Shown in pieces: positions 6,117 to 34,442 of a DNA stretch of 34,513 bases. Origin of the DNA: an uncultured Kordiimonadaceae bacterium (lineage in GTDB: Bacteria; Pseudomonadota; Alphaproteobacteria; Sphingomonadales; Emcibacteraceae); NCBI GenBank assembly GCA_937914685.1, contig CALDNY010000250.1:1-34513 (forward strand). Direction: 5' to 3'. How positions within the stretch are numbered: the stretch's first letter is position 1; each line of letters starts with the position of its first letter. Below the pieces are notes generated by a model. The model was given only the letters and a program-made list of their open reading frames with translations, did not search any database and was not told the DNA's origin. The position numbers and the translations under genes are program-made.

Positions 6117-6140
6117 ATTTTGCATTCCATTCTGTAGATT

Positions 6141-6156
6141 TTGTACAAGTGTACAA
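6141..6156. promoter_or_regulatory. 16-bp palindrome TTGTACA-AG-TGTACAA, candidate repressor operator
   Basis: Perfect 7-bp arms with 2-bp spacer, about 25 bp upstream of the proposed Rieske start and downstream of the tetR gene. Confidence 0.5.
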
Positions 6157-6215
6157 TAATAATTACAAATTCTATTTATGCAATAATATTCAACCAACCC
6201 TACAGTAGCAAAGGC

Positions 6216-6854
6216 CTATAAAAATGCCTGCTTATGTTTGGGGAAGATTTGACGTAGATATTGCATCATAACTTTTTCGGCGTCACTTCGCTTAAAACCA
6301 TTGGCAGAGATAAGAATATTAAGCCATAAGCCGTCGGCCATAGCGATAATACCTTGCGCTAATTCTGCAATATCCATAGGGGAATACTTTCCCTCTTCGA
6401 TCAGTCGAGCTAATAATTCTTTGAGTATTTCTCTATAATCGGTGACGCGCTCCTGAGATATTTTTTTGTAGGTGGGGCGTGATTTTGCCTCACCCCAAAA
6501 AGCGAACCAAACGGCGAGTTTTTTATTATCGGCTACTGTTTTTTGGTAATCCGAGCGTAATAAAGCGGCAAGCTGACTGGCAGGGTCGCTTGCTGATTTT
6601 TCAAGGGCGGCGCGCCAATTTTGTTCATATTCGGCTCGTAACTGATTGAGCGTTTCATTGAGAAGATTTTCTTTGCTGGCAAAATGCAGATTGACAATAC
6701 CTTGGCTTAGACCTGCCGCGGTTGATACATGGGCGAGGGTTGTATCGCCTAGCCCTCTTTTGGCAATAGATTCTATTGCGGCATCAATAAGTTGACGACG
6801 ACGGACTATTTTTGCGGCTCGTCTTGTTATTAGCGGTTTGGTTTGTGCCGTCAT
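6216..6854 (-). CDS. TetR-family regulator (BetI-like)
   Basis: 'RRRQLIDAAIESIAKRGLGDTTLAHVSTAAGLSQGIVNLHFASKENLLNETLNQL' HTH; 'VWFAFWGEAKSRPTYKKI' as in BetI. Confidence 0.88.
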   Translation of the reverse strand: MTAQTKPLITRRAAKIVRRRQLIDAAIESIAKRGLGDTTLAHVSTAAGLSQGIVNLHFASKENLLNETLNQLRAEYEQNWRAALEKSASDPASQLAALLRSDYQKTVADNKKLAVWFAFWGEAKSRPTYKKISQERVTDYREILKELLARLIEEGKYSPMDIAELAQGIIAMADGLWLNILISANGFKRSDAEKVMMQYLRQIFPKHKQAFL

Positions 6855-6932
6855 ATTCTATTCCAATATCAATATAACATTATTTTATTATAATAATTAA
6901 GTAAGTCAATATAAAAGGTTATGCTAATGTAC

Positions 6933-6946
6933 TGAATAACCATTCA
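6933..6946. promoter_or_regulatory. Candidate TetR-type operator TGAAT-AACC-ATTCA
   Basis: Inverted repeat in the divergent tetR / flavoprotein intergenic region, about 100 bp upstream of 7045. Confidence 0.3.
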
Positions 6947-7044
6947 TTCATTTTTAGACTGGACAAGTTATTTCTTTATAGGCATAATTCTCCAATGAAT
7001 AAGGTCTGATTCTTGGAAATCTTACTGGTAAGGGATACTGTATT

Positions 7045-8661: not shown

Positions 8662-10225
8662 TAATTCAAACAACATATATGACGTAATCATCGTCGGTGG
8701 CGGTCACAACGGTTTGGTCTGCGCGGCATACCTTGCTAAAGCAGGTAAAAAAGTGGTCGTTTTAGAATCTAATAATCAAGTGGGTGGCGGCGCTGTTACC
8801 TCTGAATTAAGTTACGGCAAAAAAGTATCTTCCTGCGCTCATTATCTAAATCAACTCAATGGCAAAGTCTCCAAGGACCTGAATTTATCACGTCACGGTC
8901 TAAAAATGGCGGCGACAGATGTTTCGACGATCGCTCTTGATGTGGGGGGGGACCATTTATATCTGACTAAAAATAACGCAAGCGGCGGCGGCATGACCCA
9001 GAGCGAAACCGACGCTTACAAAAGCTTTATGTCGCTGATACGTGAATATGCAAAAACGTTGGGTTTTCTAGCCGATATACCGCCGATTGATATTTTTAAT
9101 CTTGATTGGGACAACAAAGTTGCCGCCTTAAAGTTAGGTTGGAAATTAAGGTTTGGTCTTGGCGCCGAGAAGATGTCAGAATTCCTTCGCATGATTGGAA
9201 TGAATATCAATGACGTTCTGAATGACGAATTTGAAAATGAAAAACTCAAAGGCGCTCTCTCTTTTGATGCAGTGCTTGGCACGCATACTGGGCCTTATTC
9301 ATCGGGAAATTTCCTAACATTTTTATATCGTTTTGCTTCTGGAAACAGTGGCGCCTTGGATATTCCTGAGGGCGGTATGGGTGCGGTGACGGCGGCAATG
9401 GCCAAGGCGGCGATTGCTTTTGGTGCTGAAATTCGTGTAGGGGCCCGTGTTGGCTCGATTAATGTTGAAAATTGCGCCATCAGCGGTGTTACGCTCGAAG
9501 GCGGCGAAGAGCTTCGCTCTAACATTGTTGCCTCAAATGCTAATATGAAAACAACAGTGTTCGACATGGTTGGTACCAAGCATTTTGAAGCTGACTTTGT
9601 AAAGCGTGTGGTTGATATTCGCATGCGCGGAGCCACGGCAAAACTTCATATTGCCCTGAGAGGTCTTCCTGATTTTAAAGGTGTTGCACAAAGTGAACTC
9701 CATAACCGACTTGTTATTGCTCCGACACAAGATGATGTGGAACGGGCTTTCAATCACGTAAAATACGGCGAAGTATCACCATCACCGATGATGGAAATAT
9801 CAATCCCGTCATTGGTGGATAGCACTCTTGCTGAAAACGGACATGTTTTATCAGCGACCATACAATATGCTCCCTACAATTTAAAAGGCGGTTGGACAGA
9901 TCAGGCAAAAGCAGATTTCCTAGAGATTTGCATTGATAGGATAGCTCAATATGCTCCTGATATTAGGGATCAGATTGAACATGCTGAACTTCTGACACCA
10001 AAAGATATTGAAGAGCGCTTTGGCATGATCGGCGGTAACTGGCACCACGGCGAGCTTACACTAGATCAAATGATGATGTTACGCCCTGTGCCCGAAGCCT
10101 CTAGATATGCCCTACCACTTGGTGGGCTTTATATCTGTGGTGCTGGTGCTCATCCGGGCGGCGGCGTTATGGGAGCAGCGGGTCGAAACGCGGCACAAGC
10201 AATACTTAAAGGAGAGGCATCATGA
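8654..10225 (+). CDS. NAD(P)/FAD-dependent oxidoreductase, phytoene-dehydrogenase/PYROXD2-like (copy 2)
   Basis: 'YDVIIVGGGHNGLVCAAYLAKAGKKVVVLESNNQVGGGAVTSE', C-terminal 'LYICGAGAHPGGGVMGAAGRNAAQAIL'. 8-bp overlap with the upstream gene. Confidence 0.88.
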   Translation: MTDNSNNIYDVIIVGGGHNGLVCAAYLAKAGKKVVVLESNNQVGGGAVTSELSYGKKVSSCAHYLNQLNGKVSKDLNLSRHGLKMAATDVSTIALDVGGDHLYLTKNNASGGGMTQSETDAYKSFMSLIREYAKTLGFLADIPPIDIFNLDWDNKVAALKLGWKLRFGLGAEKMSEFLRMIGMNINDVLNDEFENEKLKGALSFDAVLGTHTGPYSSGNFLTFLYRFASGNSGALDIPEGGMGAVTAAMAKAAIAFGAEIRVGARVGSINVENCAISGVTLEGGEELRSNIVASNANMKTTVFDMVGTKHFEADFVKRVVDIRMRGATAKLHIALRGLPDFKGVAQSELHNRLVIAPTQDDVERAFNHVKYGEVSPSPMMEISIPSLVDSTLAENGHVLSATIQYAPYNLKGGWTDQAKADFLEICIDRIAQYAPDIRDQIEHAELLTPKDIEERFGMIGGNWHHGELTLDQMMMLRPVPEASRYALPLGGLYICGAGAHPGGGVMGAAGRNAAQAILKGEAS

Positions 10226-11427
10226 CATCACAAGTGGATAAAGACCATTGGCGTAGTGCGGTAAAATACACGCCTTTCTATAATAAAATGAAAGAACATG
10301 ATTATGTTAATGAGTGGCACCGCTGGGCTGAGTATACGGTGCCGACGGTTCTGGAAAATACCACATTCGAATATTTTGCTATTCGTAATGCCGCGAGCCT
10401 TTTTGATATTACACCAATGTCAAAATACAGAATTAAAGGACCAGAAGCACTGGACTTTATGAACCGCCTGTTACCACGAGATATGAAAAAACTCAAAATC
10501 GGCCGTGTTGCCTATACGGTTTGGTGCGACGATGAAGGTATGGTCATTGATGATGGGACAGTGTTTCGGGTTGCTGAAGATGAATATCTTTTATGCGCTC
10601 AAGAAAGACAATTGGAGATTTTGAAGCGTAATGCTATCGGTTTTGAGGTTGAGTATGGTGAAGTGACGGATGATATTGCGGCACTTTCATTTCAAGGGCC
10701 TGTTACCTGCAAAATTCTCAAAAATATGGGACTTAAAGACGTTGAGACCATGAAAATGTTCGACCTTCGTTTTTTCGATTTTCCCGGTGGTGAAATTATG
10801 GTGTCCCGCTCTGGTTATACTGGAGATTTGGGTTATGAAATCTGGACTAAAAATGATCAAGCAGAGCCACTTTGGGACGCTATTTTTGAAGCGGGAAAAG
10901 ATTATAATATACGTCCTATTGGCGGTAATGCGCTTGAAATAGCTCGTGTTGAAGCAGGATTAATTGCTGCAGGATCTGATTTCTTGCCAGCCAATGAAGC
11001 TGTGCGGCCGGGACATGCCAAATCACCCTATGAACTTGGTTTGGGCTGGTTGGTTAAGCTTGATAAAGGGGTGGTATTTAACGGGCGGCGCGCTTTGACA
11101 AAAGAAAAGAAAAATGGTTCGCGCTACCGTTTTGTCAAACTGGATGTGGAGGGTAATAAAACGGCCTGTAATGCTTATCTTTTTGACAAGGAAAATGGCA
11201 AAAATATCGGTTATGTTAGTAGTACGGCCTGGGCGCCATCAGCCAAGAAAAATATTGCCCTTGGTTTTGTTGATATGCCCCACGGAAAAGTGGGCGATGA
11301 AGTATGGGCCGAAATATATTATCAGAAGGAACTTAAATGGAATAGGCGCTGGGCAAAATGTACGGTTATGAAAGACCCCGCATGGAACCCACCACGTAAA
11401 ACGCTTACGCCACCAGGGGATTTTTAA
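10222..11427 (+). CDS. GcvT-fold aminomethyltransferase/demethylase (folate-dependent, DmdA/GcvT-like)
   Basis: 'NAASLFDITPMSKYRIKGPEALDFMNRLLPRDM', 'SRSGYTGDLGYEIW', 'ALEIARVEAGLIAAGSDF', 'GLGWLVKLDKGVVFNGRRAL'. ATGA overlap with the upstream gene. Confidence 0.85.
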   Translation: MTSQVDKDHWRSAVKYTPFYNKMKEHDYVNEWHRWAEYTVPTVLENTTFEYFAIRNAASLFDITPMSKYRIKGPEALDFMNRLLPRDMKKLKIGRVAYTVWCDDEGMVIDDGTVFRVAEDEYLLCAQERQLEILKRNAIGFEVEYGEVTDDIAALSFQGPVTCKILKNMGLKDVETMKMFDLRFFDFPGGEIMVSRSGYTGDLGYEIWTKNDQAEPLWDAIFEAGKDYNIRPIGGNALEIARVEAGLIAAGSDFLPANEAVRPGHAKSPYELGLGWLVKLDKGVVFNGRRALTKEKKNGSRYRFVKLDVEGNKTACNAYLFDKENGKNIGYVSSTAWAPSAKKNIALGFVDMPHGKVGDEVWAEIYYQKELKWNRRWAKCTVMKDPAWNPPRKTLTPPGDF

Positions 11428-19088: not shown

Positions 19089-20378
19089 TTAGAATTTATT
19101 AGACCAGCCTAGCATAAGAGCAAACTGATACATTTCAACTTTAATCGTGTGTCCAGGATTGCCCGGGAATGCTTCCGGTCCAGTTACAGATACAGTTGGC
19201 ACATAAGCCGCTGATAATTCTAATGAACTTGTGTCTGAAGTTTTATAAGCAAAACCACCAGTAAAGCGTGTTTTAACAACACCCGGGGCTAAAATATTCA
19301 ACATGACATCTTCAGGGCCGATAGGATTATCGTTAGTAGATATACCCGCACGTAAAGTTAGTTGGTTTGATTGTTTCCATTCAATACCCGCTTTGTAGGC
19401 CATTACGTCAGCCCATCCAAAGCCAGGACCACCAGTAGCACCAAACGGTAGAGGAATATTTGTAGCATTGCCGACTGATCCAACTTTAGAATAATAAATC
19501 TTTTTAACGTCAGCCATAAAAGTAACATCATCAGACATATCAAAGGCGATACCAACCACGAAGTTCATGGGAATATCCATACCTCCTTGATCGGCGAATA
19601 GGCCTGCATATTTCTTTAATTTACCCATTTTTGTTTTTGGCTGAAATGAAGCCGCTACACGAAATTGATCGCTTAAATTATAAGTAGCACCAATTTTTAC
19701 GCTAACGCCAAATGCCCAAGAATGGCCATTATCGCTAAGATTAGCAGCGTCAGATGAAAAACTACTAAACGCTAATAAACCTTCGGCTTTAAAACGTTGG
19801 AATGCGAGCAATGGCGTAATACCAATAGATAGATTGCCGAAACTTCTGGCGTAGCTAGGGGCTATAAAACCTTGCATTAGGTCAACACCAAGAGGACCGG
19901 CACAGAAAATTCCTTCCCCGCCAGTTGGTGGACAATCAGGCGATGGACGACCCGCCGCCGGAAAATTGGTATTCATTCCACCGTTGCCGTAAACTGTAAG
20001 ACCCCATGCGGAGTTTTCATCAATGCGTTGGCTATAAGCGATGTTTGGAATGATAAAATAATTTGAATCACTAACCACTTCACCCATGGAACTAAAACCC
20101 GGTTGATCACTCCCCGTATATTTACGTCTAGGACTAAACAGTGTCATTCCTAGGCTGATCTCGCTGCCTTCTAGAGACATTAAGTTGGCTGGGTTGATTA
20201 TTTGGCCAGTAGCATCTTTACCATCAGCTACGCCTGCGCCGCCTAGTGCAGAGTGACGCGCACCCCAAGCATATTGAAAATATCCTTCTGAAGCCGCCGC
20301 TTGTTGTGAAATCAGAACGCTTGTAGCTAAAGCGCCTATTAGTAACCCTGTATATTTAGCTTTTTTTAGTATAGTCAT
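19089..20378 (-). CDS. OmpP1/FadL/TodX-family outer-membrane transport protein
   Basis: Signal peptide then 'SEGYFQYAWGARHSALGGAGVADGKDATGQIINPANLMSLEGSEISLGMTLFSPRR'; repeated beta-strand pattern; C-terminal 'QFALMLGWSNKF' ending in F. Confidence 0.88.
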   Translation of the reverse strand: MTILKKAKYTGLLIGALATSVLISQQAAASEGYFQYAWGARHSALGGAGVADGKDATGQIINPANLMSLEGSEISLGMTLFSPRRKYTGSDQPGFSSMGEVVSDSNYFIIPNIAYSQRIDENSAWGLTVYGNGGMNTNFPAAGRPSPDCPPTGGEGIFCAGPLGVDLMQGFIAPSYARSFGNLSIGITPLLAFQRFKAEGLLAFSSFSSDAANLSDNGHSWAFGVSVKIGATYNLSDQFRVAASFQPKTKMGKLKKYAGLFADQGGMDIPMNFVVGIAFDMSDDVTFMADVKKIYYSKVGSVGNATNIPLPFGATGGPGFGWADVMAYKAGIEWKQSNQLTLRAGISTNDNPIGPEDVMLNILAPGVVKTRFTGGFAYKTSDTSSLELSAAYVPTVSVTGPEAFPGNPGHTIKVEMYQFALMLGWSNKF

Positions 20379-20701: not shown

Positions 20702-21193
20702 TTAAATAAAGAGATTAATATCTGACTTTAAGGCTCTTTCCATATAAGTAGCCGCACCACCAAGTGTGATACCATCAATCATATCATCCAAACTATATTC
20801 AAATAGATCCATTGTCATCTGACAGGCGATCAGTTCAATATCGGCTTCAACAGCAAGCTCGCGAAGTTCTTCGATTGAGGCAACACCCTTTTTCTTCATC
20901 ATGTTTTTCATCATGATGGTGGCCCCCGCAGTGGCTCCTGGTAACGCTGCAAAAATATTAGGCATAGACATATGTCCGCCAGCCATAGGCATTTCCATTG
21001 CAGGATTGCCCAGTGTAGTAAGTTTTAAATCAAGTTTTTTCTTAAGCAGCGGTAGGCCGTAAAAAGTAAAAAACATCGATACATCAACTCCCATTGCTGC
21101 AGCCGTTGTCCCCAAAATCATTGGTGGATATGCCCAATCTAATGATCCTTTTGTTACAATAATAGACATGGACTTAGCGTTATTTTCAGCCAA
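20702..21193 (-). CDS. dsrE2: DsrE/DsrF/DrsH-like protein (DsrE2 type)
   Basis: 'MSIIVTKGSLDWAYPPMILGTTAAAMGVDVSMFFTFYGLPLLKK', 'ELIACQMTMDLF', 'GGAATYMERALKSDINLFI'. Confidence 0.88.
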   Translation of the reverse strand: MAENNAKSMSIIVTKGSLDWAYPPMILGTTAAAMGVDVSMFFTFYGLPLLKKKLDLKLTTLGNPAMEMPMAGGHMSMPNIFAALPGATAGATIMMKNMMKKKGVASIEELRELAVEADIELIACQMTMDLFEYSLDDMIDGITLGGAATYMERALKSDINLFI

Positions 21194-21227
21194 TTTAATT
21201 CCCCTTAATTGTTATTTTAATTCCCGA

Positions 21228-21296
21228 TAGTATATTACATTGACTATACTAACATATTATAATGTACTAAATTATGATATAATAATATAGTACATT
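21228..21296. promoter_or_regulatory. Divergent promoter region with nested inverted repeats
   Basis: TAGTATA(21228-21234)/TATACTA(21245-21251) and AATGTACTA(21261-21269)/TAGTACATT(21288-21296). -35-like TTGACT at 21240-21245. Confidence 0.5.
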
Positions 21297-21349
21297 TAAA
21301 CTTTTAGCAATATTATATGTTGATTGGTGGGATACTTTAGGGTGAACCT

Positions 21350-22495
21350 TTGGAAGGTTTCTCGCCAAGGAATATTGAATTTATGGACAATAGTTTGAAA
21401 ATAAAGCCCTTTTTTGTCGGTAGTAATATTTTTGCTCGCGAGTTATTTGGTAAGATGCACCCTTTATCTGGCAAGCGCGTTTCTGGGGTTATTGAGCTTT
21501 GTCAGGCTATGGGATGGCTAAAAGATGAGGATATTACTCAGAGTCGCGCCGCTTCCTTTAACACTTTATCGCGGTTTCACGACAAGCAATATATCACAGC
21601 CATTAAAGAAGCGGATCAAGCAGGTATGGTCAGCGCACAGATCCGTAATAAATATTGTTTGGGCACGATGGAAAACCCGCTCTTTAAAGGGCTCTATCAA
21701 CGGGCAGCAACAACAGTGGGTGGTAGCATACTCGCGGCCCAATTATTAAAAGACGGTGGCACCGTTTATCATCCCTCCGGCGGCACTCATCACGGACGTC
21801 CAGATAGAGCCAGTGGTTTTTGTTATTTTAATGATCCGGTATTTGCCATTTTAGAATTTCTTGATCAGGGTCTTAAGTCCGTTGCTTATGTGGATATTGA
21901 TGTTCATTTTGGTGACGGAGTTCAGGACGCCTTTGAACAAGAGCAGAGGGTTCATACTTTTTCAATTCATGAAGAAAAACGCTGGCCTTATACAGGCGGG
22001 CTTGAGGATAGAGGGGGTGGGCAGTCGTTTAATATGCCTGTACCACACGGCCTTAATGATACGGAGTTTGACTATATGTTAGACCAAGTGGTTTACTCCA
22101 ATCTTAAGAGAATTAAACCGCAAGCGATTGTCATCACACTCGGGGCGGACGGACTTTACGGTGACCCTTTATCGAAAATGAACCTTAGCAATGGTGCACT
22201 ATGGCGTTGCGTCATGAATCTACGGGCGATGAGCCCTCGTACTATAATTCTCGGCGGTGGTGGATATAATCCTTGGACGACGCTTCGCTGTTGGGCGGGG
22301 ATGTGGGGACTTTTGATTGGCGCGGATTTGAATGCAGAGCTTAATTCTGAGGCTCGCGCTGTTTTAAACGCGTTAGAATGTGACCTGATCGATGAGGATG
22401 AAATGGAAAACGATTGGTTAAGCCGCATAACCGATGAGCCAAGAACGGGCGATATCAGACCTTCTGTCATTGAGGTGGCGGCTCAAGCAAAATAA
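21350..22495 (+). CDS. Histone deacetylase/AcuC/acetylpolyamine amidohydrolase-fold protein
   Basis: 'HPSGGTHHGRPDRASGFCYFNDPVFAI' (HH dyad), 'YVDIDVHFGDGVQDAF' (Zn D/H), 'LGADGLYGDPLSKMNLS' (Zn D), 'LGGGGYNP' (catalytic Y). True start may be ATG 21383. Confidence 0.92.
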   Translation: MEGFSPRNIEFMDNSLKIKPFFVGSNIFARELFGKMHPLSGKRVSGVIELCQAMGWLKDEDITQSRAASFNTLSRFHDKQYITAIKEADQAGMVSAQIRNKYCLGTMENPLFKGLYQRAATTVGGSILAAQLLKDGGTVYHPSGGTHHGRPDRASGFCYFNDPVFAILEFLDQGLKSVAYVDIDVHFGDGVQDAFEQEQRVHTFSIHEEKRWPYTGGLEDRGGGQSFNMPVPHGLNDTEFDYMLDQVVYSNLKRIKPQAIVITLGADGLYGDPLSKMNLSNGALWRCVMNLRAMSPRTIILGGGGYNPWTTLRCWAGMWGLLIGADLNAELNSEARAVLNALECDLIDEDEMENDWLSRITDEPRTGDIRPSVIEVAAQAK

Positions 22496-22642: not shown

Positions 22643-23680
22643 ATGAGTTGGTTAAAGGCCATAGAGGACATAGAAGAGCTTGAAGATGCTGTTCTGGATC
22701 ACAATTTGATCGAAAGAATGCAACAAGAATCACTTTCTTATGCCAAAAGGGAAATCCGATTTTCCACGCCTACTTTTAAGGAATATTCAAGCACTGAAAT
22801 ATCAGGCTGTTCAAGTAATAGTTTTCCTGCCTTTTCAATTACGGGCGGGGGTTGTGCTTTAATGTGTGATCATTGTCAGGCAAAAATATTAGAGCCGATG
22901 GTGCCTGTGGTTAAACCAGAAATCCTAGAAGAAAAGGTCCGGGATTTGATTTTAATGCAAAATTTACAGGGGTTTTTACTTTCTGGCGGCTCTAACCGTC
23001 GCAATGAAATAGATTATAGTCGTTATTATCCTGTTATTGAAAAGTTGAAAACTGAATTCCCTCACCTGAAAATCGCCATTCACACTGCCTTAACGGACGA
23101 AGCGTCTGCGAAGCGAATGGAGGCTGCTGGTGTTGATACGGCGATGATGGATGTCATTGGCGCCCAGGAAACAATTCGTGATGTTTATCATCTTGAGCGC
23201 AGTGTTGATGATTTTGAGGCCACATTGGCGGCTCTTTCATCGACCAATATGGAAATTTCGCCCCATATCGTAATTGGATTACATTATGGGCGAATTTTGG
23301 GAGAACGCAATGCTTTGGAAATGGTTTCGCGTTATAATGTTGGGGCATTGGTGTTGGTGGTAATAATGCCTTTTTATGCAAAGCCAGGGACTTTCATTAC
23401 CCCTGCCAGCCGTGATGTTGGTGAAATTTTTCTAGAAGCGCGTAAAATAATGGGTGAAAAGCCGGTCCTATTGGGTTGCGCCCGACCCCCGGGCATGGCT
23501 AAAAGAGAGATAGACACGTATGCGGTTATGGCAGGTCTTGATGGCATTGCCTTTCCTGCTGATGGTGTGGTTCAGGTGGCGGAGGCTATCAACAGACCTT
23601 ATAGCCAATCCCACGCCTGTTGTTCCATAAAAATTGGTAATGTTGCTGGCTCAGGCCTAGCGTCGGCTTGTGTTGCATAA
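22643..23680 (+). CDS. lipS1: Radical SAM protein, LipS1-type lipoate assembly enzyme (subtype tentative)
   Basis: CX3CX2C in 'GGGCALMCDHCQAKILEPM'; directly followed by a second radical SAM gene and a lipoate ligase. Confidence 0.7.
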   Translation: MSWLKAIEDIEELEDAVLDHNLIERMQQESLSYAKREIRFSTPTFKEYSSTEISGCSSNSFPAFSITGGGCALMCDHCQAKILEPMVPVVKPEILEEKVRDLILMQNLQGFLLSGGSNRRNEIDYSRYYPVIEKLKTEFPHLKIAIHTALTDEASAKRMEAAGVDTAMMDVIGAQETIRDVYHLERSVDDFEATLAALSSTNMEISPHIVIGLHYGRILGERNALEMVSRYNVGALVLVVIMPFYAKPGTFITPASRDVGEIFLEARKIMGEKPVLLGCARPPGMAKREIDTYAVMAGLDGIAFPADGVVQVAEAINRPYSQSHACCSIKIGNVAGSGLASACVA

Positions 23681-23735: not shown

Positions 23736-24989
23736 ATGGGCTGTATTGAAAATAAAACTGAACCATCTACCTTGAGTGCTCCGGGTCAACTGGATTATAA
23801 CTCAAAAGAAGCCATGCAGCCGCGCGCGCCAGCAATTCCTTCAAAGGAGCTGAAAAATGGCGGCAGAGTGAAAAGCAATGACGTTGTCCCTGAAGGTCTT
23901 TACCGTCCAAATTATAGGATCATGACGCCCAATATGCGTTCTCCAGAATATGTTCAGCTTTCAACCGCTGCGGCCATTACGCTTGGTGTCACTAATGGCA
24001 AAATGTACCGTTGTGAATGTACGCGCTGTTTAAATATTTTACTGACCTATCCTGAAGGATGTCGCGCCAATTGTGCTTATTGCGGACTAGCGCGTCACCG
24101 CGAGGCGGAACGGGATTTTGCGGACCGTAACTTTATTCGCGTAGATTGGCCGGCTGTTCCCATTGATGAAATCATTGAAATTGTTGCAAAAGATCCAGAA
24201 AAAAGCCCCTTTCACCGCATGTGTATTTCTATGATTACCCATCCAAATTCAGAAGATGATACTTTTACTATTCTTAAAAAATGGACAGATAAAATATCTC
24301 CTGATGCTATTCCGATTTCTATATTGTCCAACCCGACGACTATGAGCAGAGAAGATGTGCAAAGAACAAGGGATCTTGGTGCTGATATCTTTACCGTTGC
24401 GATCGATGCTGCAACACCAGAATTATTTGACCGCACCCGTGGTCGGGGCGTACAATCGCCGCACCGTTGGGATAAATATTGGGAAATTTTACTGGCCGCG
24501 CGGGATATTTTTGGCCCCGGTAAGTTTGGCGCTCACATCATTGTTGGTATGGGAGAAACGGAACAAGAAGTATTGGATCTTGTACAAAAATTAGTGGATA
24601 TGGGAGGGCATAGCCATATGTTCTGTTTTTTCCCAGAAAAAGGCTCCTTGATGGACCATCTTCCTGCGACCCCACGTGATCAGTGGCGCCGGGTACAGTT
24701 GGCGCGCTATCTGATTGATTATTGTGATGTGAATTTTGATCAAATGGATTTTGATGATCAAGGCCGTGTCGTGGGCTTTGGGATCGAGCAAGAGGAGCTG
24801 TCAAAGATTATAGATGCTGGAATTGCGTTTCGTACATCAGGTTGTCCGGGGAAATTCCAAGATGATATTTCCGCATGCGACCGTCCTTACGGCGATAGCC
24901 CGGTCAGTGATATTGCCAGTTATCCTTTTAAATTGAACAAAAAAGATATTAAAAAGGTTCGTAAAGACCTTGATATGCCATCGATATGA
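23736..24989 (+). CDS. lipS2: Radical SAM protein, LipS2-type lipoate assembly enzyme (subtype tentative)
   Basis: CX3CX2C in 'PEGCRANCAYCGLARH'; 'CECTRCLNILLTYPEGC'; position before the lipoate ligase. Confidence 0.7.
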   Translation: MGCIENKTEPSTLSAPGQLDYNSKEAMQPRAPAIPSKELKNGGRVKSNDVVPEGLYRPNYRIMTPNMRSPEYVQLSTAAAITLGVTNGKMYRCECTRCLNILLTYPEGCRANCAYCGLARHREAERDFADRNFIRVDWPAVPIDEIIEIVAKDPEKSPFHRMCISMITHPNSEDDTFTILKKWTDKISPDAIPISILSNPTTMSREDVQRTRDLGADIFTVAIDAATPELFDRTRGRGVQSPHRWDKYWEILLAARDIFGPGKFGAHIIVGMGETEQEVLDLVQKLVDMGGHSHMFCFFPEKGSLMDHLPATPRDQWRRVQLARYLIDYCDVNFDQMDFDDQGRVVGFGIEQEELSKIIDAGIAFRTSGCPGKFQDDISACDRPYGDSPVSDIASYPFKLNKKDIKKVRKDLDMPSI

Positions 24990-25019: not shown

Positions 25020-26096
25020 ATGAGTAAGCCAATATTGAGAGTGATTGAGACTGATTTTAATGATTCGCGCATGCATATCTCCTATGGTCAAGCCATGGTC
25101 GATCAGCACCAGCAAGGCTTGCAACCAGACACTTTGCGTTTCATGCGTTTTAACCCTTCCGTACTGATTGGTCGTCATCAAGTGCTTAATGACGAAGTCA
25201 ACATTGATTATTGTCAGAAAAATAATATTCAAATCGTAAGACGGATAACGGGCGGCGGCGCTATTTACATAGACTCCGGGCAGTTAGGCTGGGAGCTGGC
25301 CATCAGCAAAAAAAATATAGGATCAGGCCAATTATCAGAAATCACCAAGATTTTATGTGAAGCGGCTGCAAAAGGACTTGGCAAATTAAATATTGATGCC
25401 AAATTCCGCCCCAGAAACGATCTTGAGGTTGATGGTCGAAAGATTGCCGGTACAGGCGGTTTTTTTGATGGAGATACACTCTTTTTTCAGGCGGGCGCGT
25501 TGGTCGATATGGATGTTAATCATATGACATCATCGTTAAATATTCCCGCCGCTAAATTAAACAAGAGAAATATTAAATCTGGTAGTGACAGAGTGGTTAC
25601 GGTGAGAGAGCTTTTGGGGGATAAGACGCCTTCAATTCAAGTTTTCAGTGATAATTTATGTGATGCTTTGTGTGAAGCTTTAGGATTAGAGCCTCAGCGA
25701 GCAGAATGCTCTCAAGCAGAGCTTGAACTGGCACAAGAATATTATGATGATGAAATTGGCCAAGATGATTATGTTTATGAAATTAACCGTATTCATCAGG
25801 GTGATGTTGTAAGGCGCGGTCATACCGTAACACCGGGTGGTATTATATATGCCTCAGTCAAATTAAAAGGCGCTAAACTTAATATGATCGGCGAAATTGT
25901 TTTTAATGGTGATTTATTCGTATCGCCGCCCCGTGTTTTGTATGATTTAGAAGCGCATTTAAAAGGTGTTTATCTGCCCGATGTGGCGGCTGCTATAGGG
26001 AGTTTTTTCGAAAAAACAAAAATTAATATGATGAGCGTGCAGCCAGAGCATTTTGTCAATGCCATTAATAATGCACTAGAGCAGGGTCAGGCATGA
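25020..26096 (+). CDS. Lipoate-protein ligase, sLpl(AB)-like, with fused C-terminal accessory domain
   Basis: 'VRRITGGGAIYIDSGQLGWEL', 'FRPRNDLEVDGRKIAGTGGFFDGDTLFFQAGALVDMD' (ligase core); C-terminal 'RRGHTVTPGGIIYASVKLKGAKLNMIGEIVFNGDLFVSPPRVL'. Confidence 0.88.
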   Translation: MSKPILRVIETDFNDSRMHISYGQAMVDQHQQGLQPDTLRFMRFNPSVLIGRHQVLNDEVNIDYCQKNNIQIVRRITGGGAIYIDSGQLGWELAISKKNIGSGQLSEITKILCEAAAKGLGKLNIDAKFRPRNDLEVDGRKIAGTGGFFDGDTLFFQAGALVDMDVNHMTSSLNIPAAKLNKRNIKSGSDRVVTVRELLGDKTPSIQVFSDNLCDALCEALGLEPQRAECSQAELELAQEYYDDEIGQDDYVYEINRIHQGDVVRRGHTVTPGGIIYASVKLKGAKLNMIGEIVFNGDLFVSPPRVLYDLEAHLKGVYLPDVAAAIGSFFEKTKINMMSVQPEHFVNAINNALEQGQA

Positions 26097-26794
26097 AAAA
26101 TTTAACCGTTATACAGCATACGTCGGCTGAATTCCTCGGTCTTATGGAAGACCATCTTGAAGGAAGGCGAATACGTTTTAATTATTGCCGACCATTCGTT
26201 GAAGGCACACCTATTCCTCATCAGGATGTGGTTGGCGATGGTTTAATACTTTTGGGCGGTGGCCCATGGGGCTCCGCCGGTGGGCGCAACGTGCCAACGT
26301 TGGATGCTGAAATTAAATTAACCCGTTCTTGTTTGATGATGGGATTACCGGTCATTGGTATTGGTCTTGGTGCTCAGATTTTGGCGATAGCCTCGGGCGG
26401 GGACAGCTTAGAACATAAGTTGACCTCTCATGTTGGTATGGCGCACCGGGTTAATGAAGAGGCGCTTGCGGGGTATATTCCGGAAAAATACCCACTTGTT
26501 AAATACATGCGCGACAAACCCGTACTCAGTTCATATGCTCAAACTTTAGCCGTTGATGATGAGGGGGAAGTAGCTCTTTTCCAAGTTGGTGACAATAGTT
26601 TTGGTTTTATTGGACATCCCGGTATTAAGCCGGCGATGGTTGAGGATCTGGTCATGGAATTTGAAGAGGCACCAGAAAATTCCAGTGAAACATTACAATC
26701 GATAAGGCCAATGGTTTCTCAAATTGAAGATAGTCTTATGTCAATTATGACAGGGCTAGTTCGTGTAACGGGAATTATGGAAGAGAGTTTATAG
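26093..26794 (+). CDS. Class-I glutamine-amidotransferase-like protein, catalytic Cys replaced
   Basis: 'LPVIGIGLGAQILAIASGG' corresponds to the canonical GxCxGxQ nucleophile elbow with Gly at Cys; 'GFIGHPGIKPAMVEDL' corresponds to the 'QFHPE' region. ATGA overlap with the ligase. Confidence 0.75.
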   Translation: MKNLTVIQHTSAEFLGLMEDHLEGRRIRFNYCRPFVEGTPIPHQDVVGDGLILLGGGPWGSAGGRNVPTLDAEIKLTRSCLMMGLPVIGIGLGAQILAIASGGDSLEHKLTSHVGMAHRVNEEALAGYIPEKYPLVKYMRDKPVLSSYAQTLAVDDEGEVALFQVGDNSFGFIGHPGIKPAMVEDLVMEFEEAPENSSETLQSIRPMVSQIEDSLMSIMTGLVRVTGIMEESL

Positions 26795-26991: not shown

Positions 26992-27372
26992 ATGGCTGAA
27001 AAGCTCATAATTGTTATGTTGAATACGGATCCTAATAATGGCGAAGAATTAGGGGCCCCAATTTTTCAAGCCTCTGTGGCGGCTGCTATGGAATATGAGG
27101 TCGAGGTCATTTGTACCGCGACATCAGGCAGATTGATGAAAAAAGGCGTTGCTGAAAATCTTTATGTTAAAGAAGGATCACCAAAATCTGTTTATAGCTT
27201 CATCCAAGATGCCCATGAAGCGGGTGCAAAATTCTATTGCTGTTCTCCAAATCTTGATCTTTTTGATATGACTGTAGACGACCTTATTCCAGAGTGTGAA
27301 GGTATCGTAGGCGGCGCTTATCTGATTGAACAAATTATGGAAGATGATGACACCAGAGTCCTCACTTATTAA
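26992..27372 (+). CDS. dsrE3: DsrE-family protein (DsrE3 type) of the sHdr cluster
   Basis: 'EKLIIVMLNTDPNNGEELGAPIFQASVAAAMEYEVEVICTATSGRLMKKG', 'AGAKFYCCSPNLDLFDMTVDDLIPECEGIVGGAYLIEQIM'; immediately upstream of the shdr genes. Confidence 0.85.
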   Translation: MAEKLIIVMLNTDPNNGEELGAPIFQASVAAAMEYEVEVICTATSGRLMKKGVAENLYVKEGSPKSVYSFIQDAHEAGAKFYCCSPNLDLFDMTVDDLIPECEGIVGGAYLIEQIMEDDDTRVLTY

Positions 27373-27421: not shown

Positions 27422-28177
27422 ATGACGAATTCAAGCTCAACACGTGTGCAGGAATTTATTGGCGACCCTTTATCGGAAGAGCCGATTGTTGACCGTGGAA
27501 AATTAGAAGCGGTTTTTAACGATATTCAGGCAGATATGCGCTATGATCATGAACTGAACGGATGTCTTAATTGCGGGATTTGCACGGCCACATGCCCCGC
27601 CGCACATTATTATGATTTTAGCCCCAGAGAAATAGTTCAGCTTTTGTGGACCGAAAACCTTGAAGGCATTCATGATGCTATGCAGGAAAAAATTTGGTCT
27701 TGTGCTCAATGTTATACCTGTGCGGCGCGCTGTCCATTTGGGAATTCCCCTGGCGGCCTTGTGATGATTATGCGCGAAACAGCTATTAAACACGGAATGG
27801 AATCGGCGAAATCAGTGTTGCGGCCTTTTAGTCGAGTTATGTTGAAATTAATTTCAACAGGGAACCAGCTTGCTCCTGATATGATTACAGCAGACCATTT
27901 CCCTGATTGGGGCCCTAATATTTCAAAAGTAGACGCACCACTTGATTTGTTGCGTAAAGCGATTCCGATGCCGACGCTTAATACAACAAAAACCGCGTGG
28001 GAAGTGAATTTGAAAACGTCGGTGGAATTATTCACGATCTGGGAAGAAACTGGTGTTCTTGATCAGTTAGAGACTATTGATGAAAATCTTTTTGATGTGA
28101 TCGAAGATTTTATGGAAGAAAAACGCGAAGATTTAGAAGATTGGGAAGAGGAGCAGGACGATGATGATGATGAATGA
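27422..28177 (+). CDS. shdrC1: sHdrC1: sulfur-oxidizing heterodisulfide reductase-like subunit C1
   Basis: Two [4Fe-4S] motifs 'CLNCGICTATCP' and 'CAQCYTCAARCP'; gene order. Confidence 0.9.
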   Translation: MTNSSSTRVQEFIGDPLSEEPIVDRGKLEAVFNDIQADMRYDHELNGCLNCGICTATCPAAHYYDFSPREIVQLLWTENLEGIHDAMQEKIWSCAQCYTCAARCPFGNSPGGLVMIMRETAIKHGMESAKSVLRPFSRVMLKLISTGNQLAPDMITADHFPDWGPNISKVDAPLDLLRKAIPMPTLNTTKTAWEVNLKTSVELFTIWEETGVLDQLETIDENLFDVIEDFMEEKREDLEDWEEEQDDDDDE

Positions 28178-28212
28178 TCACCCATACCAACGCTCAACGA
28201 AGGAGATAGACT

Positions 28213-29571
28213 ATGACTACAATTGATAAGAATGGTGGACCAAGCCTAACTGGTCACGGTGATGAATGGCGCGATGCAAAATTATCTGCCCATGACGCCC
28301 GTACCGCTACCAACTGGGTAGAGCAGAAAATAGACCGTCGCTCGATGTTAACGGGTAAAAACCGCGTAAGTGATGACCGTGATCTTATGTGGCAGCTTGA
28401 AAAAGAAGGCGAAATTGTTGTTCACCGGGTTAATGATGGCAATAAAGTTTCTATGGCTAAAACTCTTTATGGTTGGGATAAGAAAATACCAACTGATCGC
28501 TTGTGGCACCATAAATCTTGTGGTCAATGTGGTAATATTCCTGGCTATCCCACCTCCCTCCTGTGGATGATGAATAAATTAGATGTTGAGTATCTTGATG
28601 AAACGGATCAGACATCTTGTACGGCTTGGAACTATCATGGTTCTGGCATTGGTAACATTGAAAGTCTGGCCGCTGTATTTTTGCGCAATTTTCATCAGGC
28701 CTATGTCTCTGGTCGCGCCCAAGGACTTCCTGATGGATATTTTTTCCCATTGGTTCATTGCGGCACCTCTTTTGGTAACTATAAAGAAGTAAGAGGCTAT
28801 CTCTTGCATTCGGCCGAACTACGGGAACGCGTTAAGAAAATTCTTGGCAAGCTCGGCCGTCTGGTTGATGGTAAATTACTTATTCCAGAAGAAATTGTTC
28901 ATTATTCAGAATGGGTCCATGTTATGCGCGGCGAAATTGCCAATCATCAGGTATATGATTGTAGCCATATTCGCTCCACCATTCATCCAGCGTGCCATGT
29001 ATATAAAATGGTACCCCAAGATGTGATCTATGATGATGATGTGTTGGATGGTAACAGAGTGGCCGTCTCCACGGGTATTATGGAAAGCATGGGAACGCAG
29101 GTTATTGATTATTCCACATGGTATGATTGTTGTGGTTTTGGCTTCCGCCATATTATTTCAGAGCGTGAATTTACCCGTTCCTTTGCTATTGATCGCAAAC
29201 TACGAGTAGCGGTTGATGAGGCAAAATCAGATGTTATGATCGGCCATGATACGGGCTGTGTGACAACATTGGATAAAAGCCAATGGATTGCGCAAGCCAT
29301 GGGCGAGAAAATTGAACTCCCTGTGATGGCAGACATCCAGTTTGCCGCGCTAGCATGTGGTGCCCATCCTTATAAAATTGTCCAACTGCATTGGCATGCC
29401 TCAGCGGTTGAAAAATTACTAGAGAAAATGGGTATCGACCAAGCCGCTAGTATGGCCGAGTTTGAGGCTTATCTTGAACAAGTTAAAATCGGCAAGCAGG
29501 AAAACCTTTATGACCCCCGCAAGATGATCACATCTGGACCGGGCTTTGAAAAAATTGAGCAAAAATTATGA
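28213..29571 (+). CDS. shdrB1: sHdrB1: heterodisulfide reductase-like subunit B1 with non-canonical CCG motifs
   Basis: 'HKSCGQCGNIPGYPTSLLWMM', 'HPACHVYKM', 'YDCCGFGFRHI', 'GHDTGCVTTLD'; between C1 and A. Confidence 0.88.
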   Translation: MTTIDKNGGPSLTGHGDEWRDAKLSAHDARTATNWVEQKIDRRSMLTGKNRVSDDRDLMWQLEKEGEIVVHRVNDGNKVSMAKTLYGWDKKIPTDRLWHHKSCGQCGNIPGYPTSLLWMMNKLDVEYLDETDQTSCTAWNYHGSGIGNIESLAAVFLRNFHQAYVSGRAQGLPDGYFFPLVHCGTSFGNYKEVRGYLLHSAELRERVKKILGKLGRLVDGKLLIPEEIVHYSEWVHVMRGEIANHQVYDCSHIRSTIHPACHVYKMVPQDVIYDDDVLDGNRVAVSTGIMESMGTQVIDYSTWYDCCGFGFRHIISEREFTRSFAIDRKLRVAVDEAKSDVMIGHDTGCVTTLDKSQWIAQAMGEKIELPVMADIQFAALACGAHPYKIVQLHWHASAVEKLLEKMGIDQAASMAEFEAYLEQVKIGKQENLYDPRKMITSGPGFEKIEQKL

Positions 29572-30605
29572 GTAAACCATATTTAGTTGTTGGTGGCGGC
29601 CCTGCGGGCTTATCTGCCTCACATTCCCTGGCAGCACTTGGGAAAAAAGTTATTCTGGTCGAAAAAGAAGACCGTTTGGGCGGCGCTCCTATTTTGGATG
29701 GCTACGCCAAACTTGTTCCAAGCGGTGAATGGGCCAAAGATGCCATTGGGTCTATGGTCGACCGTGTGACGGGCAATGATAATATAACCGTTATGACGAG
29801 CACTACTGTTGTTGAGCAAAAAGGTAAAGATGGTAACTTTGATGTCACTCTTTCGAACGGTGATGTGATCAATGTGAACTCAATAGTGCTGTGTACTGGC
29901 TTCACCCATTTTGATTCAGTTAATAAACCTGAGTGGGGTTTTGGTACTTTCGAAGATGTTGTCACAACAACGCAAGTTGAGCAGATGATTTCGTCTGGTA
30001 AAGGTGTGCGTTGTCCGTCCGATGATCGCAAACCGAAACGGGTGGCAATATTGTTATGTGTTGGCTCCCGTGACCGTCAGATTGGCCGTGAATGGTGTTC
30101 AAAAATTTGCTGTTCAGTTTCGGCTAATATTGCCATGGAAATCCGCGAAGAATTACCAGACTGTCATGTTTATATTTATTATATGGATATTAGAACCTTT
30201 GGCTTGCTTGAAACCCATTATTACTGGAAAAGCCAAGAAGAATATAAGGTTAAATATATTAAGGCCCGTATCGCCGAAGTGACCTCCAATGGCAAGCAAT
30301 TGATTGTTAAGGGTGAAGATACATTGGTTAAGCGTCCGATCACCATTCCATTTGACATGGTTGTTCATGCTATTGGTATGGATCCCAATGTGGATAACAT
30401 GCTGATTAGTTCAATATTTGATGTTGACCTTGAACAACATGGATTTATCGACAAAGGGAATACATATGGCTCTCTTGGTGCCACATCGCATACTGGAATT
30501 TTTGTTGCTGGTGCGGCTACTAGCCCTGAAACTATTGACGATTCAATTGCTCAAGGTGCGGCTGCGGCCATGTCAGCCATTGAATACGCAAATTTAAATA
30601 GCTAA
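29568..30605 (+). CDS. shdrA: sHdrA: FAD/FeS heterodisulfide reductase-like subunit A
   Basis: 'YLVVGGGPAGLSASHSLAALGKKVILVEKEDRLGG', 'LLCVGSRDRQIGREWCSKICCSVSANIAMEIRE', 'GIFVAGAATSPETIDDSIAQGAAAAMSA'. ATGA overlap with B1. Confidence 0.93.
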   Translation: MSKPYLVVGGGPAGLSASHSLAALGKKVILVEKEDRLGGAPILDGYAKLVPSGEWAKDAIGSMVDRVTGNDNITVMTSTTVVEQKGKDGNFDVTLSNGDVINVNSIVLCTGFTHFDSVNKPEWGFGTFEDVVTTTQVEQMISSGKGVRCPSDDRKPKRVAILLCVGSRDRQIGREWCSKICCSVSANIAMEIREELPDCHVYIYYMDIRTFGLLETHYYWKSQEEYKVKYIKARIAEVTSNGKQLIVKGEDTLVKRPITIPFDMVVHAIGMDPNVDNMLISSIFDVDLEQHGFIDKGNTYGSLGATSHTGIFVAGAATSPETIDDSIAQGAAAAMSAIEYANLNS

Positions 30606-30616
30606 AAGAGTAAAAA

Positions 30617-31480
30617 ATGTTGGGACTATTTACCAGACATAAGCAAGATAACGTAGAGGCTACACCAGTTGAGCTTGACTTAAGTGGTGAGCATCTTAAA
30701 TACGCGTTTGAAAGCCTGTTGTCTGCCAGCGAAGAGCAAGGCGGAGTGGAACGCTTCATCTATGCCTTACAGGTAAGGAGGGACGCTTTTAAAGAAGCTT
30801 TTAATTTTAAAACGCCTTCGATGCCAGATACGGCCATGCTACAGGCCTTATGTTCGTTTATGCCGACGGTTAGACGCCGCATTGCCCCGTATCTTGAAAA
30901 TAGCGAAAAAAAAGAAATTCTAAAGAACGCCTTATTAACGCTGCAAGAGGGAGCCGAAGATGTGTCGGCGGCCGATGAGCGCATTGCTCAATTTTGCAGC
31001 GTATTTCCAAAGGATAAAGATCATCGCTGGACGCGGGATTTAGCCAGTGAAGTGCTGCACGGCACTGACCCTGAACGTTATCCACTTATGTGTCGCTGGG
31101 TATGGGATACGGCGACAAATACAGGGGTCTTACGTGAAATATGGTTCTCAGATAATATCGATAATCTGGTTATTGATGTTGTTGATAACTTCGAAACTTT
31201 CATCACTCTTAGGCAGGAAATAAGCCAGTATTTGAGTGATAACGGTGTATATAAAGATATGTTGCAGATTGTTGATTTGCTGCAAGCTCAAATTTATGCC
31301 GGTTATATCTGCGATCACGGAAACACTTATATTAGGGCTGATTTTACCAACCCTGAAGATCCGATGATGCATATTCGCCGCCTTCTAGGTCTTGATGGAG
31401 TTTCTGCTAAAGGCAGATCAAAACTCAAGACAATTGAAGGCCAATCTGTTATTTTTGATACTCTAGACGCTCTGAGTTGA
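30617..31480 (+). CDS. sHdrH-type hypothetical protein of the sHdr operon
   Basis: Uncharacterized 287-aa ORF between sHdrA and sHdrC2, the position of the conserved 'hyp' gene in described sHdr clusters. Confidence 0.8.
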   Translation: MLGLFTRHKQDNVEATPVELDLSGEHLKYAFESLLSASEEQGGVERFIYALQVRRDAFKEAFNFKTPSMPDTAMLQALCSFMPTVRRRIAPYLENSEKKEILKNALLTLQEGAEDVSAADERIAQFCSVFPKDKDHRWTRDLASEVLHGTDPERYPLMCRWVWDTATNTGVLREIWFSDNIDNLVIDVVDNFETFITLRQEISQYLSDNGVYKDMLQIVDLLQAQIYAGYICDHGNTYIRADFTNPEDPMMHIRRLLGLDGVSAKGRSKLKTIEGQSVIFDTLDALS

Positions 31481-31493
31481 GCGGGAGAAATTT

Positions 31494-32273
31494 ATGCCAA
31501 TTCATGAAAAATCGCTGATCCGCCCGGAAAACATCAAGTCCCATGACGAACTTGTCATTGAAGGCATTGATGTCTCTGGACATTGGAGCACGTTCATCCA
31601 AAGTCGTGTGGTTACGGATTATAATGAAGAGCTGGAGGAAGAAATTTCTGCATTGCCGGGCGGTGAATATATTCATCGTTGTTTTCAATGTGGTTCTTGT
31701 ACCAATGCTTGTACGGTTAATGCGCTAAATGCTGATTTTAACCCGCGTTATTGGATTTATCTGATCCGTATGGGAATGGAAGAAGAATTGTTGCGTGATA
31801 AAGAGATCATTTGGCAATGTGTGTCTTGTAATAAATGTACTTATATCTGCCCGCGTGATGTGGCACCCGAAGGCGTGATGAAAGCGACATCCCATTGGTT
31901 GGAGCTGAAAGGTCACACCCCAAAGTCACATTCGACGATATTTGATGAGGTCTTTACGGATCAAGTTATGGAGACAGGTATGATTGAGGAATCTCGGACT
32001 ATCCGTGGTTTCTTTGGCCGCACCAAACAAAGTCTGACCCAAGGATGGTTGATAGAGATGGTTAAGCGTTTAATGCGTAATTTACCTGTTGAAATGTTAA
32101 TAAAATTAGGACTTGCCACATTTCTTCGCCCAAGAACAAAAAACTGGGGTGCTGCGAGGGACGCTATGAAAGAATATGCCCAAGAGCAACATGCTCTTCA
32201 CCGTAAGGCATTAAAGCTAGATCAAGTTACGCAAAGTGACGATTCCAATACCGCTAATCAGGAGACTAATTAA
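31494..32273 (+). CDS. shdrC2: sHdrC2: heterodisulfide reductase-like subunit C2
   Basis: FeS motifs 'CFQCGSCTNACTVNAL' and 'CVSCNKCTYICPRDVAPEG'; operon position. Confidence 0.9.
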   Translation: MPIHEKSLIRPENIKSHDELVIEGIDVSGHWSTFIQSRVVTDYNEELEEEISALPGGEYIHRCFQCGSCTNACTVNALNADFNPRYWIYLIRMGMEEELLRDKEIIWQCVSCNKCTYICPRDVAPEGVMKATSHWLELKGHTPKSHSTIFDEVFTDQVMETGMIEESRTIRGFFGRTKQSLTQGWLIEMVKRLMRNLPVEMLIKLGLATFLRPRTKNWGAARDAMKEYAQEQHALHRKALKLDQVTQSDDSNTANQETN

Positions 32274-33208
32274 TGTCTGAGAATAAAGAAAAATATAAAA
32301 ATGTGGCCTACTATCCGGGCTGTGCCTTGGAGGGTACGGGGCACGCTTATAATAAATCTACTAAGGCCATTGGTAAGGCTTTAGACTTAGGATTAGAAGA
32401 AGTAAAAAATTGGAACTGTTGCGGCGCCATGGAAGTTAAAAACGTTGATCCAAAACTTCAAACCTATTTATCATCGAGGGTCATGTCCATTGCGAGTAAT
32501 GAAATGAAGCATGATGTGGTTATGGCGCCTTGTAATGGCTGTTATCACAATCTGAAAAAAGCCGAATATGATCTTGAAAACGATGCTGCTTCCGTCGAAG
32601 TAGTTGAACAAATTTCTAAAAAAGCGGGTCATGAAACTTATAAGGCAGGTTCAATTGAAACCATTCACGCTTTGGACTGGATTAAAAAAGCGGTTGGTGA
32701 AGAAGAGCTAGAAAAGAAAATTAAAGGCGGCTTGAAAGGCTTGAAAGTCGCTAATTATTACGGCTGCATGTATACTCGCCCCCGTAATATTTTTCCTGAA
32801 AAAGACCAAGGGGGGGATAGCGAATCAACCGATAAACCACATTATATGGACGATCTTTTAGCTGTGGCTGGTGCTGATAATGTGGACTTTCCGTTAAAAA
32901 CAGCCTGTTGCGGCGGTGCGCATACTTTATCTGATAGCGACACATCAACTAAATTGGTTCTGAATATATTGATGGCTGCTGAGGCATCTGGTGCCGAGGT
33001 GATCGCCACAGAATGTCCGACTTGTCACAGTGGTCTGGAAATGCATCAAATTCGCGCAGAAAAAATGTTTGGTAAGAAAACCAATGTAAAAATTGTCTAT
33101 TTCACTCAATTGCTCGGTATGGCCTTAGGTTTGAGCAAGCGAAAAGTAGGATTGCAGGAAAATATTTCTGATAGTTATGCTCTTATGAAAGAAAAAGGGA
33201 TTGCATGA
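32273..33208 (+). CDS. shdrB2: sHdrB2: heterodisulfide reductase-like subunit B2 (two canonical CCG domains)
   Basis: 'YYPGCALEGTGHAYNKS', 'NWNCCGAMEVKN', 'APCNGCYHNLKKAE', 'YYGCMYTRPRN', 'TACCGGAHTLSDSD', 'TECPTCHSGLEMHQ'. Confidence 0.93.
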   Translation: MSENKEKYKNVAYYPGCALEGTGHAYNKSTKAIGKALDLGLEEVKNWNCCGAMEVKNVDPKLQTYLSSRVMSIASNEMKHDVVMAPCNGCYHNLKKAEYDLENDAASVEVVEQISKKAGHETYKAGSIETIHALDWIKKAVGEEELEKKIKGGLKGLKVANYYGCMYTRPRNIFPEKDQGGDSESTDKPHYMDDLLAVAGADNVDFPLKTACCGGAHTLSDSDTSTKLVLNILMAAEASGAEVIATECPTCHSGLEMHQIRAEKMFGKKTNVKIVYFTQLLGMALGLSKRKVGLQENISDSYALMKEKGIA

Positions 33209-33628: not shown

Positions 33629-34072
33629 ATGCCTAATATACGTGGATGTAATTTACCAGATGATTTATTGTATGATGTTGAAAATCATATTTGGTTCCGT
33701 GAAATGGGAGACGGTAAAGTCAAACTTGGCATGACGATGGTCGCGACAGCCCTTGCAGGGCAATTGGTTGCTTTTACTGCTAAAAGAGTTGGCAAAAAAA
33801 TTAAAGCAGGAAAATCTGTTGCTACGGTTGAATCTGGTAAATGGGTTGGCCCTGCTAAGTCTGCGGCAGCCGGTGAAGTGATCGAGGTTAATCAGGCACT
33901 GGTAGATAGCCCTAGTTTGGCAAATGATGATCCTTACGAAGCGGGTTGGATGATTATATTGCAACCAGAAGACTGGGATAGTGTTAAAAGTTCTTTGGTT
34001 CTTGGGTCAGCAGTAACACCAAGTTATGAAGCAAAAATGGATGCAGATGGTTTTGAGGGATGTGGCGCGTGA
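33629..34072 (+). CDS. lbpA: LbpA: lipoate-binding GcvH-like protein of the sHdr pathway
   Basis: Start moved to ATG 33629 after AAGGAGG (tracked ORF starts 33554). 'HIWFREMGDGKVKLGMTMVATALAGQLVAFTAKRVGKKIKAGKSVATVESGKWVGPAKSAAAGEVIEVN'; predicted lipoyl-Lys codon 33839-33841. Confidence 0.93.
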   Translation: MPNIRGCNLPDDLLYDVENHIWFREMGDGKVKLGMTMVATALAGQLVAFTAKRVGKKIKAGKSVATVESGKWVGPAKSAAAGEVIEVNQALVDSPSLANDDPYEAGWMIILQPEDWDSVKSSLVLGSAVTPSYEAKMDADGFEGCGA

Positions 34073-34115: not shown

Positions 34116-34442
34116 ATGATGGTGGGGGAAAAAAAGATGGATATAGAATTGCTCAAAGACAATGCAAAGAATGTATCTGAATTATTAAAAGTTATGTCCA
34201 ATGAATGGCGTTTGCTCATTCTTTGTTATTTAGCAACTGAGGAACGAAGCGTAGGTGAGCTAGAAGTGTTGCTTGGACTAGGTCAATCAGCATTATCACA
34301 GCATTTAGCCGTTTTACGCAGAGAGAAACTGGTGCGAACAAGGCGTAGTGCTCAGTCTGTGTATTATACGTTAGATAGTGATGATGTTGAGGTCATTATG
34401 GGGACGCTTTATGAGCGATTTTGCAAAACTGATACTGCCTGA
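34116..34442 (+). CDS. ArsR-family regulator, SqrR/BigR/sHdrR-like
   Basis: 'SNEWRLLILCYLATEERSVGELEVLLGLGQSALSQHLAVLRREKLVRTRRSAQSVYYTL', C-terminal 'LYERFCKTDTA'; two Cys at SqrR-like positions. Confidence 0.9.
   Translation: MMVGEKKMDIELLKDNAKNVSELLKVMSNEWRLLILCYLATEERSVGELEVLLGLGQSALSQHLAVLRREKLVRTRRSAQSVYYTLDSDDVEVIMGTLYERFCKTDTA

Follow-up and report, generated by a model that had tools for sequence, protein, structure and literature searches.

A described route to a lipoate-modified LbpA in sulfur oxidizers is the sLpl(AB)-LipS1/LipS2-LipT assembly (Tanabe et al. 2023, PMC10332631). The ligase sLpl(AB) lacks octanoyltransferase activity, and its acyl substrates are confined to free octanoate and lipoate (PMC6067878, PMC10332631). 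The genes lipS1-slpl-lipT-lipS2 alone modified LbpA in E. coli, with inefficient insertion of the second sulfur, and the main text of the same paper mentions no deacetylase (PMC10332631). The parts of the published accounts that were accessible do not explain the source of the free octanoate or lipoate used by this dedicated ligase. The window analyzed here, a 34,513-nucleotide stretch of DNA from an uncultured Kordiimonadaceae bacterium, shares with the described assembly the genes for LipS1, LipS2, sLpl, a LipX-like protein, and a FadL/LipY-like protein. These lip genes are headed by a gene for a histone deacetylase (HDAC)-fold zinc amidohydrolase (Table 1). The preliminary description of this locus knew of no role for such an enzyme in sHdr clusters, and our literature search, which had most subscription papers and preprints outside its reach, likewise found no report linking a deacetylase to LipS1, sHdr, or LbpA.

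The HDAC reading frame is open on the plus strand from 21350 to 22495 and yields 381 aa when read from the TTG codon. The ATG at 21383 is favored because conservation among orthologs sets in shortly downstream of it and an AAGGA motif lies just upstream. The extent and motifs first assigned to this gene therefore stand, while its start moves to the ATG. The protein belongs to Pfam family PF00850 (231 bits, E = 2.4e−68, cut-off 27.9) and has every catalytic residue in place, as expected from the initial claim of an intact HDAC-fold enzyme; it has no NCBIfam match. It is also, as first described, the product of the first plus-strand gene ahead of LipS1, LipS2, and sLpl, with 147 bp between its stop codon and LipS1. 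The gene, its active site, and its position beside the lip genes are not due to chance. The host genome encodes two further HDACs, both distant.

The names LipS1, LipS2, sLpl, and ArsR are based on matches below curated cut-offs together with conserved gene order. The predicted lipoyl lysine of LbpA is K71, numbered from the ATG at 33629. The ArsR-type regulator encoded at 34116 may use the palindrome between DsrE2 and the HDAC as its operator. The LipX-like protein reads GIGLGAQ where GxCxGxQ is usual, as do all 29 relatives in which the elbow was read; lacking the nucleophile Cys, it is probably not a working glutaminase. Positions 4917 to 11427 of the window encode a GbcA-like Rieske oxygenase, two CrtO-like FAD oxidoreductases, and a GcvT-like demethylase, which together may form a block for the catabolism of methylated amines beside the sulfur island. 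No LipS1 was found in 13 further genomes from the host's genus, indicating that the sulfur island is patchy in this lineage.

Table 1. Features of the sulfur island in the window and, in the last row, ligase fusions at other loci
Feature	Position	Strand	Basis or remark
FadL-type outer-membrane protein, LipY-like	19089..20378	-	Present in 29 of 80 HDAC loci
DsrE2, divergent neighbor of HDAC	20702..21193	-	NF047629, 222 bits, above cut-off
Divergent promoter region, DsrE2/HDAC	21194..21382	.	AT-rich palindrome at 21235-21299
HDAC-fold zinc amidohydrolase (LIP clade)	21383..22495	+	370 aa from ATG 21383; longer alternative start TTG 21350
LipS1, radical-SAM lipoyl synthase part	22643..23680	+	NF053742, E = 1e−58, below curated cut-off
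LipS2, radical-SAM lipoyl synthase part	23736..24989	+	NF053743, E = 2e−57, below curated cut-off
sLpl(AB) lipoate:protein ligase, 358 aa, no hydrolase fusion	25020..26096	+	PF21948, TIGR00545, LplB match
LipX-like class-I GATase, nucleophile-elbow Cys replaced (GIGLGAQ)	26093..26794	+	
DsrE-family sulfurtransferase	26992..27372	+	PF13686
sHdr genes C1, B1, A, H, C2, B2	27422..33208	+	Named from order and conservation with other clusters
LbpA, GcvH-like lipoate-binding protein, K71 in ESGK	33629..34072	+	PF01597
ArsR-type regulator, BigR/sHdrR-like	34116..34442	+	NF040642, E = 2e−24, below cut-off
sLpl–alpha/beta-hydrolase fusions	L023:4968-6866, L024:12906-14807, L025:12631-14493, L214:2505-4376		lip clusters without HDAC

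GTDB contigs were scanned with an alignment of eight HDAC orthologs, and the best 80 loci were kept. LipS1 and LipS2 were encoded near the HDAC in 64 of these best 80 loci, which spanned alpha-, beta-, and gammaproteobacteria, and lipS1 was generally the next gene after the HDAC gene on the same strand, separated from it by a median of 49 bp in the 57 close same-strand pairs. The surveyed hosts that carry the HDAC include the culturable species Oricola nitratireducens and Pinisolibacter aquiterrae. DsrE2 adjoined the HDAC in 47 of the 80 loci, and a FadL-type gene was present in 29. For 10 of the 16 loci without a linked LipS1, LipS1 was found elsewhere in the genome; the remaining 6 include two members of the THI clade defined below. 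A correlation between LipT and the HDAC was rejected, as LipT occurred in 31 of the 80 loci and in HDAC-free clusters too. Because the seed orthologs were themselves linked to lipS1, the proportion of 64/80 is biased when taken alone, and the HDACs were therefore classified by sequence.

A tree of 117 HDAC sequences, built without an AcuC reference sequence, contained two sister clades, LIP (86 sequences from alpha-, beta-, and gammaproteobacteria) and THI (27 sequences), with moderate support for the split (86 to 94 SH-aLRT). Profiles of the two clades set all tested full-length sequences apart by ∼70 bits or more and one truncated fragment by less. In the LIP clade, which is thus defined by sequence, 73 members lie near lipS1/lipS2, 6 lie beside DsrE2/FadL, and 7 have other contexts. 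The preliminary description had tied the enzyme to the lipoate-assembly genes and held that unlinked homologs would speak against this; the clade gave the opposite outcome. Genes of the THI clade are mostly divergent from an NMT1-type ABC transporter for thiamine precursors, and a TPP riboswitch was found near the HDAC in 9 of 9 THI loci tested; these enzymes may be amidohydrolases of thiamine pyrimidine salvage. At alphaproteobacterial loci L185 to L204 (e.g., L201:4356-8107), the THI gene is divergent from a ThiXYZ-like NMT1-type transporter, often with DUF192. Four genomes (G223, G307, G377, and G440) encode one member of each clade.

A LipS1 search of 386 genomes of the class gave 11 positives; in 7 of these, including the host genome, the lip cluster contains the HDAC. 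Of the 386 genomes, 7 encode a LIP-clade member, and all 7 are among the 11 that are LipS1 positive (Fisher P of about 1e−12, with relatedness not corrected). It is not universal with LipS1, as genomes G061, G233, G264, G379, and G441 contain either an HDAC of the THI clade only or no member. The broader proposal that the whole family at 40 to 50% identity is lipoate linked was rejected, since the family occurs in 70 of the 386 genomes and the fetched members from LipS1-negative genomes are THI; ∼40 lower-scoring family matches were left unfetched, each scoring below every LIP member seen. No plasmid-borne copies of LipS1 were found. A tight LIP subgroup (L042, L056, and L081) comes from metagenome-assembled genomes in which no LipS1 was found, which may reflect loss, a new role, or incomplete genomes. 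The pairing of HDAC and lipoate genes recurs across many unrelated sulfur-oxidizing bacteria, and the HDAC is therefore probably an unrecognized part of the lipoate cofactor pathway rather than a random neighbor.

All positions of the catalytic set in HDAC8 numbering (H142/H143, D176, D178, H180, D183, D267, and Y306) are occupied by the same residues in the window HDAC and in 86/86 members of the LIP clade. In the numbering of the window HDAC, these include zinc ligands D173, H175, and D256, the dyad H136/H137, and the catalytic tyrosine Y295, and the relay Asp is equally invariant. F176 occupies the position of HDAC8 H181, which is His in 84/86 relatives and is not a zinc ligand. An AlphaFold model of the protein (pLDDT of 94, pTM of 0.94) has the arginase/deacetylase fold, with its best structural match to HDLP (TM of 0.93 to 1c3r). 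The foot-pocket position of HDAC8 W141 is Thr in LIP and THI alike (T135 in the window HDAC), a replacement that would be expected to give a roomier foot pocket. This small residue is common to the THI clade, and no pocket residue of the window HDAC proves C8 specificity. HDAC8 D101 binds the substrate backbone. The equivalent acid, E97, is kept in all 86 LIP sequences versus 11 of 27 THI sequences, which favors a protein or peptide substrate.

Several lip clusters without the HDAC encode an altered ligase. The sLpl proteins of G061, G233, and G379 (620 to 633 aa) carry a C-terminal alpha/beta-hydrolase domain, as does that of G808; the absence of a LIP-type HDAC holds genome-wide for the first three and is not a genome-wide statement for G808, G816, and G821. 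The fused domain resembles esterases and has an intact GHSDG nucleophile elbow, with its Ser, and a conserved His. No such fusion was found among ∼70 complete sLpl sequences of HDAC-positive genomes, which are 346 to 375 aa long. G264 and G441 have neither the LIP HDAC nor the hydrolase fusion. In G264, LipS2 and sLpl appear to be fused in one open reading frame (L026:625-2994), and the sLpl of G441 has a Cys-rich C-terminal extension that is DUF116-like by eye (L220:10424-12091). All HDAC-negative ligases fall on one side of a single split from the HDAC-positive ligases in the ligase tree. Repeated independent replacement of the HDAC by an alpha/beta-hydrolase is thus unsupported, and the exchange counts as one contrast that may be a single event.

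Sequence analysis shows that the HDAC combines an intact catalytic center with a class-I-like HDAC fold, that it belongs to a distinct clade, and that its gene holds a conserved position in the lip operon. We propose, with a probability of roughly 0.4, that the sLpl/LipS1/LipS2 pathway of sHdr sulfur oxidizers uses this enzyme as a dedicated zinc-dependent deacylase acting on a C8 acyl amide. Since sLpl is limited to free octanoate or lipoate, we favor release or editing of C8 acyl groups around sLpl and LbpA by a deacylase, and the chemistry of an amide hydrolase fits octanoyl- or lipoyl-lysine. The enzyme would hydrolyze octanoyl-, mercaptooctanoyl-, or lipoyl-lysine on LbpA itself or on degraded or other lipoyl proteins. 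Such hydrolysis could make free octanoate or lipoate available to sLpl(AB) again, reset LbpA that is wrongly or incompletely modified, or do both, and the hydrolase fused to sLpl may meet the same need where the HDAC gene is missing. Because LbpA was modified in E. coli without the HDAC gene, the enzyme would be accessory and not essential for attachment. A point against the proposal is that, judging by its published gene order, H. denitrificans seemingly has no HDAC beside lipS1, yet its sLpl is unfused. The fuller form of the proposal is more doubtful: that this is the first HDAC-fold lipoamidase or octanoyl-amidase of a bacterial cofactor pathway, making LbpA lipoylation reversible and providing C8 acid for sLpl, and that it was swapped in another lineage for an sLpl-fused alpha/beta-hydrolase.

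The main rival to C8 deacylation is a regulatory, AcuC-like lysine deacetylase acting on sLpl, on K71 of LbpA, or on sHdr proteins, for instance by freeing acetylated K71 for lipoate. The class-I-like tunnel of the window HDAC (F146 and W201), the invariant E97, and the peptide deacetylases that are the closest structural matches of the model all suit such an enzyme, and its operon position suits control of the pathway. However, no acetyltransferase was identified among the conserved neighbors, which are partly annotated, and deacetylation leaves the alternative fusion of sLpl with a hydrolase without a reason. We regard it as rather unlikely.

Hydrolysis of a small acylated amine or another amide, whether an acetylpolyamine or a compound metabolized by the flanking catabolic genes, is hinted at by the sister THI clade, with its thiamine-pyrimidine transporters under TPP riboswitches. 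The preliminary description had considered an acylated amine from the flanking region and named acetylpolyamines as control substrates. Conservation beside the HDAC extends to the lip genes but not to the catabolic genes in the first 16 kb of the window. The gatekeeper Glu of HDAC10, which we take to be E274 at the position of HDAC8 M274, is replaced by Leu in the window HDAC and in 85/86 clade members, while E97 is retained. Both small-amine and polyamine substrates are weakened by these observations, and we consider them improbable. Least probable is that the HDAC serves another part of sulfur oxidation, such as an acylated DsrE, TusA, or sHdr component, and shares an sHdr island with the lip genes: several Robiginitomaculum genomes do have the HDAC with DsrE2 and FadL and lipS1 elsewhere, but a linked HDAC gene almost always immediately precedes lipS1, and no sHdr gene was found in the retrieved stretches of the G720 and Ancalomicrobiaceae loci, which do contain the HDAC, lip genes, and LbpA.

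The HDAC fold itself is known; the dedicated clade and its link to the lipoate pathway appear to be new. A conserved HDAC gene leading the operon and, in clusters lacking it, a hydrolase fused to the ligase point to a missing step that is directly testable. C8 deacylation would assign a defined pathway to a bacterial HDAC clade and give a lead on the role of HDLP-like bacterial enzymes. HDLP of Aquifex aeolicus (1C3R/1C3P) is the nearest solved relative of the window HDAC (sequence E = 9e−64, ∼31% identity) and has the same full catalytic set, but it falls outside the LIP and THI clades. We know of no established natural substrate for HDLP. The class I enzymes human HDAC8 and HDAC1-3 share with the window HDAC the zinc site, the HH dyad, the Tyr, the aromatic tunnel, and an acid at the D101 position; they differ in the foot-pocket Trp141, which is Thr here, in overall sequence (26 to 29% identity), and in a histone context that the window lacks. 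The AcuC-type bacterial deacetylases belong to PF00850 and are presumed to act on acyl-lysine, and no acu genes were recognized in the window. The same outcome as proposed here, removal or repair of a lipoyl modification, is attributed to the lipoamidases Lpa (an amidase) and CobB (a sirtuin; PMC5596343) and to ABHD11 (PMC12643935). Their folds are unrelated to that of the window HDAC, which matches PF00850 alone and has neither an amidase-signature nor a sirtuin fold, but it could still work like the lipoamidases Lpa and CobB.
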